Assembly (NCBI RefSeq): GCF_947072685.1
Contig: NZ_CAMTIK010000023.1
Location: 1 to 34,569, forward strand
Source of the DNA: an uncultured Cetobacterium sp.
Lineage (GTDB): Bacteria > Fusobacteriota > Fusobacteriia > Fusobacteriales > Fusobacteriaceae
Direction of reading: 5' to 3'
Length of the DNA: 34,569 nt
In this document: positions 22,468-34,552 of the stretch, in pieces
Position numbering within the stretch: position 1 is the first letter of the stretch
Layout of the letters: every line of letters begins with the position of its first letter
Position numbers and translations under genes: made by a program
Notes under the pieces: generated by a model
The model's database searches: none
What the model was told of the DNA's origin: nothing
The model's input: only the letters and a program-made list of their open reading frames with translations

Positions 22468-22495
22468 TTGTTTTTTTCTCCTATTATGTTATAAT
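22468..22495 (+). promoter_or_regulatory. Promoter of the Tyr leader and AgcS symporter
   Basis: TTGTTT (22468-22473) and a perfect TATAAT (22490-22495) lie 16 bp apart, with TG one base before the -10 box (extended -10). Transcription would start near 22502, about 20 nt before the leader peptide start codon, giving a leader RNA of about 230 nt before the symporter. Confidence 0.78.
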
Positions 22496-22522
22496 ACATA
22501 AAATAAATTTTTGGAGGAAAAT

Positions 22523-22579
22523 ATGGAACAAAAAGTAATGTTTAATATAAATTCATATTACTATTATTATCTAACCTAG
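22523..22579 (+). CDS. Poly-tyrosine leader peptide (attenuator)
   Basis: An 18-codon ORF, translation MEQKVMFNINSYYYYYLT, ending in TAG. GGAGG (22513-22517) is 5 nt upstream of the ATG, an excellent ribosome binding site. Codons 12-16 (22556-22570) are five consecutive Tyr codons (four TAT, one TAC). It lies between a strong promoter and an intrinsic terminator that precedes a transporter gene, the classic layout of a ribosome-mediated attenuator such as the trp, his or phe leaders. The expected behaviour is stalling at the Tyr run when charged tRNA-Tyr is scarce. I know of no named example of this leader, so the identity is inferred from layout. Confidence 0.85.
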   Translation: MEQKVMFNINSYYYYYLT

Positions 22580-22700
22580 GGTTGGTATTTTTGTTTCATT
22601 CAAAAAATACGAATCCACTTTGTGTTACCGGTTAATAACTAGTAAGATGGATTTGTTACATAGAACTGTTAGTTTGCAGCCTGTGGTCAATCCACAGGCT
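22579..22700 (+). promoter_or_regulatory. Attenuator RNA with alternative pairings
   Basis: Four nested pairings, each excluding the next, can be drawn. 0:1 is GGGTT plus GTATTTTTG (22579-22593) with CAAAAAATAC plus AATCC (22601-22616). 1:2 is ACGAATCCA (22609-22617) with TGGATTTGT (22648-22656), 9 bp including one G-U. 2:3 is TGGATT (22648-22653) with AATCCA (22689-22694). 3:4 is the terminator stem. A ribosome that reaches the TAG at 22577-22579 would cover strand 0 and favour 1:2 and the terminator. A ribosome held on the Tyr codons leaves 0:1 free to form, releasing strand 2 to open the terminator. Folds were found by eye; energies were not computed. Confidence 0.65.
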
Positions 22701-22707
22701 TTTTTTT
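22678..22707 (+). terminator. Intrinsic terminator of the attenuator
   Basis: AGCCTGTGG (22678-22686) and CCACAGGCT (22692-22700) form a perfect 9-bp, GC-rich stem with a 5-nt loop, followed by seven T residues. It lies upstream of the AgcS start codon (22733) and downstream of the promoter, so it can only act as an attenuator, not as the end of a preceding plus-strand gene. Confidence 0.92.
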
Positions 22708-22732
22708 ATTTTTTTAATCTTAGGAGGTCATT

Positions 22733-24073
22733 ATGAATTTTTTAGAAACTATTGTTAATTTTTTAAACTCCATTCTTTGGGGTAAAAATCTACTTGTTGT
22801 CTTACTTATTTTTTCAGGAGTATTTTTTACTTTTAAAACAAATTTTGTACAAATTCGTTTTTTTAAGCATATGATTGCTCTTTTATACGAGAAATCTGAT
22901 AACAACAATCAAAACCTTTCACCTTTCCAAGCGTTTTGTATCAGTACTGCCACTAGAGTTGGAGCTGGTAATCTTGCTGGTGTTGTCAGTGCAATCTCTA
23001 TTGGAGGAGCCGGTTCCATATTTTGGATGTGGGTCGTTGCTTTTTTAGGTTCTGCAACTGCTTTTATAGAAACAACTTTGGCTATAATCTTTAGGGAACA
23101 AGATAAAAATGGAACTTTTTTTGGAGGCCCATGTTTCTTTTTAAAAAATGGTCTGGGCAAAAAGAGTTGGGGAATTGCCTTTGTTTTTACTGGGATAATT
23201 TGTTGGGCTGGCGTTCTACAAGTTGTATCCAATTCTGTTACCGAATCTTTTAATGTAGCTTTTAATTTAAATCCTTTTATAATGGCCGGACTTTTAACTC
23301 TTATGGCCGCCATCGTAATTTTTGGAAAAACTGATAAAACTGCTAAAATTTTAGATAAAGTAGTTCCTTTGATGGCTTTTTTATACCTAGCTATTGTATT
23401 TTTTATAATCATAAAAAACTTCAATCTGCTTCCAGATGTTTTTACTCGTATATTCTCAGAAGCATTTGGTATAAGACAAGGAGTAGGTGGAACTGTTGGG
23501 GCTATCGTCATGCAAGGTGTTAAGAGAGGGCTTTTTTCTAACGAAGCTGGAACTGGAAGTGCTCCTTGTGCTGCTGCTAGTGCTAACGTTTCTCACCCTG
23601 TTCAACAGGGGCTTATCCAAAGTTTAGGTGTATTTGTAGATACATTTGTTATCTGTACAGCTACTGCACTCGTTATGCTTTTAACAAAGGAATCAATCAT
23701 TCAAAATTTAAATGGAATGGAACTCCTACAAAAATCTTTTAACTACCATTTAGGTTCAACTTTTGGAGAGATTTTCGTAGCTATTATTCTTTTTCTTTTC
23801 TGTTTTTCAACCCTTCTTGGAATATGTTTTTATGGAAAAGTTAACGTTAAGTTCTTAACAGATAAGGAAATTGGACAAACTTGTTTTAAAATTTTTGCTC
23901 TATCTATGATTTTTATTGGTGGAATTCAACAAAATATTTTTATGTGGAATCTAGCTGATTTAGGGCTTGCTCTTATGACAATAATCAATTTATCTGGGGT
24001 TTTTCCCCTTTCAAAATTTGCATTTGATTCCTTAAAAGATTATGAATCTAAATTTATAAAATTAAAAATTTAA
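22733..24073 (+). CDS. AgcS-family sodium:amino-acid symporter, probably tyrosine-regulated
   Basis: 446 residues with about eleven membrane segments. The family signature is clear: TRVGAGNLAGV (~74-84) followed by GGAGSIFWMW (91-100), and a conserved NEAGTGSAPCAAA segment (~271-283). Members are sodium-driven amino-acid transporters, usually annotated as alanine or glycine carriers. AGGAGG lies just upstream of the ATG. The preceding attenuator has a leader peptide with five Tyr codons, so expression is predicted to rise when tyrosine is short; tyrosine or another aromatic amino acid may be the actual substrate. That specificity is inference. It is a single-gene unit ending at the 24081-24110 terminator. 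Confidence 0.92.
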   Translation: MNFLETIVNFLNSILWGKNLLVVLLIFSGVFFTFKTNFVQIRFFKHMIALLYEKSDNNNQNLSPFQAFCISTATRVGAGNLAGVVSAISIGGAGSIFWMWVVAFLGSATAFIETTLAIIFREQDKNGTFFGGPCFFLKNGLGKKSWGIAFVFTGIICWAGVLQVVSNSVTESFNVAFNLNPFIMAGLLTLMAAIVIFGKTDKTAKILDKVVPLMAFLYLAIVFFIIIKNFNLLPDVFTRIFSEAFGIRQGVGGTVGAIVMQGVKRGLFSNEAGTGSAPCAAASANVSHPVQQGLIQSLGVFVDTFVICTATALVMLLTKESIIQNLNGMELLQKSFNYHLGSTFGEIFVAIILFLFCFSTLLGICFYGKVNVKFLTDKEIGQTCFKIFALSMIFIGGIQQNIFMWNLADLGLALMTIINLSGVFPLSKFAFDSLKDYESKFIKLKI

Positions 24074-34204: not shown

Positions 34205-34552
34205 GGGGATGCAAAGGTTTCGACAGGGTTGTGAGGTTATAAGTAGCAGGCCAGGTTGATCGCTGTGAGAGATCAACTCATCGTTTAGATGGAAACAATA
34301 ATTACGCTTTAGCTGCATAATGACAGCTCACCTTTGAACTTTCTTTTCTGTAGGAGCGTTCAGCCAAGGTGTCACTTAAATACAGATTACCCTAAGCGAT
34401 TTCTCTAAGTTCTAGGGGACATTTCAGAGAATAGCTTTTGTTAGCCCTGTTTGTGGGAGTAACATTTGCGAAGTTAAATAGCAAACTAAGCTTGTAGAAG
34501 CTTATGGCACTTGCGATTTTGGACACGGGTTCGATTCCCGTCATCTCCACCA
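34205..34552 (+). ncRNA. ssrA: tmRNA (transfer-messenger RNA)
   Basis: About 348 nt, one-piece form. The 5' end GGGGATG (34205-34211) pairs with CATCTCC before the terminal ACCA (CCA encoded at 34550-34552), forming the alanyl acceptor stem. The 5' block GCAAAGGTTTCGACAGGG and the 3' T-arm with GGTTCGATTCC are typical. The tag frame starts with a GGA resume codon at 34291 and ends with TAA at 34318-34320, giving GNNNYALAA. It rescues stalled ribosomes together with SmpB. The gene is complete; the 17 nt after it show no terminator. Confidence 0.96.

Follow-up and report, generated by a model that had tools for sequence, protein, structure and literature searches.

The region upstream of agcS in the window, by which we mean the whole 34,569-nucleotide stretch analysed here, from an uncultured Cetobacterium genome of 2.15 Mb in 51 contigs, very probably acts as a tyrosine-responsive, ribosome-mediated transcription attenuator with a predicted four-link chain of hairpins, and it is one member of an attenuator family that extends across the phylum Fusobacteriota. 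Direct reading recovered every part listed in the original prediction, namely a promoter, a GGAGG, an 18-codon ORF with five Tyr codons, a TAG, a 9-bp terminator and the symporter gene, all on the forward strand. The predicted promoter, read in the sequence, is TTGTTT-16-TGtTATAAT with an extended −10 (22468-22495); its −35 hexamer is weak and it is absent from the list produced by a blind promoter/terminator scan, while the same extended −10 is present in all aligned leaders of the genus. The Shine-Dalgarno sequence GGAGG (22513-22517), also read in the sequence and conserved, precedes the leader ORF (22523-22579), whose 18 codons run from the ATG at 22523 to the TAG at 22577-22579 and encode MEQKVMFNINSYYYYYLT. 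Its regulatory codons, TAT TAC TAT TAT TAT (22556-22570), are read in the sequence as Tyr codons 12-16. The intrinsic terminator, hairpin C (22678-22707), consists of AGCCTGTGG-TCAAT-CCACAGGCT (22678-22700), with a 9-bp stem (22678-22686:22692-22700) whose pairs covary and a run of eight T reaching 22707, and it was recovered independently by the blind scan. The gene itself, agcS (22733-24073; TIGR00835, 439 bits), codes for a sodium:amino-acid symporter, whose closest named relative is that of an uncultured Cetobacterium (87% identical). Rfam scans detected no riboswitch, T-box or other leader RNA family in the window or in 12 related loci. A tmRNA gene (RF00023) lies at window positions 34205-34552.

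Between the leader ORF and the gene, five RNA segments are predicted to form four mutually exclusive hairpins, A (1:2), B (2:3), the antiterminator E (3:4) and the terminator C (4:5); in the window fold, A is compatible with E and B with C. Segment 1 (22579-22592; fold and covariation), the 5′ arm of hairpin A, starts at the last base of the stop codon. Segment 2 (22603-22616; fold and permutation, 0/20000) is the 3′ arm of A and, with 22609-22620, also the 5′ arm of B. Within segment 3 (22644-22669; fold and permutation), 22644-22656 pairs back in B, and 22649-22655, 22659-22663 and 22666-22669 pair forward in E, which captures segment 4 (22676-22693; fold and permutation), the terminator 5′ arm and loop, at 22676-22679, 22681-22685 and 22688-22693. 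The pairs are 22579-22583:22612-22616 and 22585-22592:22603-22610 for A, 22609-22617:22648-22656 and 22618-22620:22644-22646 for B, and 22649-22653:22689-22693, 22659-22663:22681-22685 and 22666-22669:22676-22679 for E. The clearest case is the second tandem leader of genome G014, where segment 3, GGTCTGTATC, is complementary over its full length to both segment 2, GATACAGATC, and the terminator, GGTGCAGACC, as read by eye and in agreement with the fold. The loop of hairpin B holds, directly after hairpin A, the motif CATTTTGTRTTA (22617-22628; CACTTTGTGTTA in the window), which is conserved across amino-acid classes and is a candidate RNA polymerase pause site; matches at 10 or more of the 12 positions occur in 20 of 41 leaders vs 2.5% of shuffles. 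Our guess is that the motif may serve as a hairpin-stabilised pause, by which polymerase and ribosome would stay in step. We also observed that the coding stretch 22549-22562, which leads into the Tyr run, is complementary to 22643-22656 of segment 3 at 13/14 positions; the whole leader includes this pairing in its minimum-energy fold. By eye it was seen within the genus, as was a similar match of the His codons to segment 3 in His leaders, and such pairing may act as a brake against read-through of untranslated RNA.

We folded transcripts ending before the 3′ arm of the terminator, with no constraint toward any structure and with segment 1 either free or masked; these folds and the permutations described below are all computational and share one energy model. 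Unconstrained folding gave A and E when segment 1 was free and B when it was masked. In the window, the probability that segment 4 is paired upstream was 0.76 free vs 0.44 masked, a shift of about 0.33 that none of 60 dinucleotide shuffles matched, and the inner part of E (22659-22685) survived masking. The mean shift was 0.246 in 14 distinct leaders vs 0.018 (sd 0.039) in the null, and 0.166 vs 0.018 (sd 0.026) in 27 further leaders, which came from a search with a model containing only A and C. A simulated stall at the first or the last Tyr codon left the A and E state in place (0.76 and 0.76), and without a ribosome the folding was intermediate (0.54 in the window, 0.475 on average). Masking had no effect on a minority of leaders in this simple model, L127, L203 and L205 among them. 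We then exchanged zones between leaders, using one leader from each of 32 classes; such structure-blind partner swaps reached the observed values for A, B and E in 0/20000 cases each, and those of a control pairing in 16360/20000, so the zones of each leader fit one another. Hairpins A and C, moreover, covary in the leader alignments. The terminator is retained in the complete leader's minimum-energy fold whatever else forms, and the switch must therefore be kinetic.

A ribosome covers about 12 nt beyond the first base of its A-site codon, as toeprints show. We accordingly estimated its front to lie near 22568 at the first Tyr codon, 22580 at the last and 22589 at the stop codon. Given these positions, only a ribosome that has passed all the Tyr codons hides segment 1, which makes hairpin A a sign of starvation and read-through. 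When Tyr-tRNA is low, the ribosome would stall within the Tyr run and leave segment 1 free; hairpin A would then form and release segment 3, which would capture the terminator 5′ arm and loop, and RNA polymerase would read into agcS. With ample Tyr-tRNA, the ribosome would run to the stop codon and cover segment 1, hairpin B would lock segment 3, and terminator C would stop transcription. Sequence and computation establish which parts the leader has and that they are conserved, which pairings exclude one another, and how codons agree with genes; we infer that charged Tyr-tRNA acts as the signal, that E outpaces C in time and that AgcS imports tyrosine.

In a classical arrangement of the trp type, a stalled ribosome would instead mask segment 1 and free segment 2 as the antiterminator, and hairpin A would favour termination. 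We regard this as very unlikely here. The same kinds of parts are present, that is, a leader peptide, a codon run, alternative hairpins and a terminator, but 8 nt separate the end of the Tyr run (22570) from segment 1 (22579), so the regulatory codons do not lie within segment 1 where a stalled ribosome would mask them; masking of segment 1 gives B, which leaves the terminator untouched; and the terminator 5′ arm is captured by 3:4, a structure that coexists with A. The original prediction, drawn by analogy with trp, his and phe leaders, is supported; the wiring differs from trp, there being four hairpins and not three, and a ribosome at the stop codon being the one that masks segment 1. The leader resembles E. 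coli trpL in its peptide with cognate codons, its mutually exclusive hairpins, its intrinsic terminator and the passage from stall to read-through. The trp attenuator, however, has three hairpins, with Trp codons in region I and a I:II hairpin that accompanies termination (PMC1183508). The agcS leader differs in having four hairpins, in placing its codons upstream of segment 1 and in linking A (1:2) with read-through. The chain of the his operon attenuator (hisL) has an odd number of links and its stalled ribosome masks the first segment, whereas the agcS chain is even. Two features are nevertheless common to both, the run of regulatory codons and an extra hairpin in the chain compared with trp (PMC1183508).

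Five Tyr codons in a row are indeed improbable by chance, as originally argued (p about 4e-6 in 17 free codons, even at 5% Tyr). Judged from the sequences, conservation is stronger evidence than this figure that the run is real. A reading of 31 further TAY-run stretches of the source genome showed a few short ORFs with four Tyr codons. Alignment of the regions upstream of agcS, the check suggested for the prediction, revealed that the Tyr run, the terminator and the alternative hairpins are all kept in orthologous leaders. An agcS ortholog (79-100% identity) is present in nine genomes of the genus, with the five-Tyr leader in 9/9, and five Tyr codons occur in every agcS leader aligned, including those of other genera; each such Tyr leader is located before an agcS relative. 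Among the genus peptides, such as MKQKIVFNTNSYYYYYLT and MKQQKQFNRNSYYYYYIN, residues outside the run vary and the run of five is kept, as it is in MFRFRKINTTSYYYYYRT, MGSNLQFFIRNAYYYYYKNKDWC, MLKTIKINTTSLYYYYYL and MNNKNFVTTSYYYYYRNQDLN from other genera. In four genomes of two genera, tandem Tyr leaders precede agcS (L147, at 1018-1083 and 1231-1293, L148, L197 and L198), the downstream copy carrying six or seven Tyr codons; placed in series, the two would give a sharper response.

These peptides also bear on the idea that the nascent chain is an arrest peptide like TnaC or SpeFL, which would sense free tyrosine and stall the ribosome. Within the genus the peptide is partly conserved beyond the Tyr run (K.FN.N.YYYYYLT), as such a peptide would be, but between genera only the codon run is conserved and the rest differs (e.g., MFRFRKINTTSYYYYYRT and MNNKNFVTTSYYYYYRNQDLN), without the wider peptide conservation of the TnaC type. 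The distance from run to stop, furthermore, ranges from 3 to 27 nt among leaders, and in homologous leaders the same hairpin frame goes with codons for Trp, Met, Asn, His, Pro or Thr, all of which makes an arrest peptide even less likely than a trp-type arrangement.

Tyrosine-responsive, ribosome-mediated attenuation is the best reading of the agcS leader, on account of the conserved orthologous leaders and of matching codons before genes of known specificity; the leader is not peculiar to AgcS and belongs to a phylum-wide family. We built a covariance model, R2, from 19 diverse leaders and applied a cut-off of E<=0.05, at which it matched 43 of 98 Fusobacteriota genomes vs 1 of 199 Bacillota. 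The single Bacillota match, which is without a leader, was set aside; the matches L266, L271, L275 (upstream of a bactofilin-like gene), L240 and L276 have no leader ORF and are probable false hits. Where the model also matched the antisense strand of leaders found in sense, this was put down to hairpin symmetry. Across the 98 Fusobacteriota genomes, the same architecture precedes tyrS (Tyr codons, MKFDNNQTYYYYY), trpS (Trp, MLSYHKNNKNWIHWWF and MKINYYAISYWWC), metG, metN, metY and hom (Met, e.g., MKNIEFRQLNMMMMLWKGL before metG), asnA (Asn, up to nine), hisZ (His, MKFSLSRRAHHHHHHR), putP (Pro, MKKDQVISKNVNRQPIPPR, in the window's own genome), thrS (Thr, MLYGVFFDTTTTLTNK) and DAHP-synthase genes (mixed aromatic residues, MATQNFTNWYFYYYFRN), the identities of the downstream genes being confirmed by NCBIfam. 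All 25 tested leaders that precede a gene whose specificity is known carry cognate codons, with at least two cognate residues each, and the mean number of cognate residues was 4.68 vs 1.70 with gene labels permuted (n=25 leaders); these leaders were chosen by reading the matches, so that selection is possible, and a rule-based list gives the same picture. That the leader ORF is incidental, and a plain terminator or small-molecule riboswitch precedes agcS, is the least likely explanation of all, for although a strong terminator is present, the five-Tyr run is conserved between genera, cognate codons stand before all 25 of those genes, and the leader has no Rfam riboswitch or T-box.

Further members of the family were observed in individual genomes. 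The window's own genome holds a second member (L272; contig C5, 23079-23187), a Pro-coded leader ending in PIPPR and a stop codon, which has the same hairpin chain, precedes the sodium/proline symporter gene putP and has relatives in the genus (L251, L265, L268 and L270). A His-coded leader ending in SYHHR and a stop codon (L257) lies before an ABC binding-protein gene in genome G054, of family f4. Its presence in this other family of the same order points to attenuators that predate any one bacterial family. At L241, a tandem glycine riboswitch (521-664) stands between a Thr/Ile-coded leader and asd, so it is uncertain which gene this leader controls.

T-boxes sense tRNA charging by direct binding of the tRNA, with no leader peptide. 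Like the T-box (RF00230), the attenuators described here would respond to tRNA charging ahead of genes for synthetases, transporters and biosynthesis, and would settle between terminator and antiterminator. With the covariance model, no RF00230 match at gathering score was found in the window or its own genome, and T-boxes over the curated cut-off occur in only 2 of 98 Fusobacteriota genomes, with no match in the window's genus; an older survey listed none for Fusobacteria or Thermotogae (PMC2494555). The attenuator family probably fills the T-box niche in the Fusobacteriota, and would explain the control of amino-acid supply in a phylum with few T-boxes. Taking these observations together, we think it likely that the leader-peptide attenuators of the Fusobacteriota form one homologous class, with an even chain of four links and a conserved motif, CATTTTGTRTTA, that may set the timing of RNA polymerase pauses, a class recoded for Tyr, Trp, mixed aromatic residues, Met, Asn, His, Pro and Thr, which controls synthetases, biosynthesis and transport, replaces T-boxes and reveals the substrates of transporters.

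Leader-peptide attenuation is a textbook mechanism, known chiefly from enteric bacteria and a small number of other groups. A family that spans a phylum, can be recoded and has its hairpin parity inverted would, if true, be a new branch of it. By general standards the agcS leader fits a ribosome-mediated attenuator in its ORF, which carries a codon run and is predicted to be translated, and in its intrinsic terminator, which competes with an antiterminator. Comparable predictions exist in other phyla. The uORFC-13-1 aroF leader of Acholeplasma combines a predicted amino-acid-coded uORF and a terminator before DAHP synthase (PMC8632094), but it uses Phe codons and occurs only before aroF, with no four-hairpin chain described there. 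In Streptomyces, the synthetase genes trpS and leuS are predicted to be under leader-peptide control (PMC1262725), although with the classical antiterminator/terminator anatomy. We found no description of leaders like those reported here in the literature on tyrosine attenuators, on Fusobacteria leaders or on AgcS and tyrosine phenol-lyase; a 2010 survey of attenuation in amino-acid and aminoacyl-tRNA operons (doi 10.1134/S0026893310010164) may list some.

Finally, since leader codons match genes of known specificity, they allow a substrate to be predicted for transporters of unknown substrate. On the evidence of their leaders, the predicted substrates are tyrosine for AgcS, tryptophan for an NSS-like transporter, which had no NCBIfam match and was named by eye, and histidine for the ABC binding protein. 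The codons would in this way name transporter substrates beyond the reach of sequence alone, the predicted import of tyrosine by the AgcS of the window being the first, and codon swaps between paralogs would amount to a natural experiment on the evolution of the switch. In line with the tyrosine prediction, an AgcS paralog of 510 residues, 56% identical over the larger aligned stretch, is encoded directly after the tyrosine phenol-lyase gene in the same genome (L152; C4:17500-22500). Another agcS paralog of this genome (L005; C19:17552-18895) contains one TAA within its match, which may mark a pseudogene, an error of assembly or simply the point where the reading frame ends.
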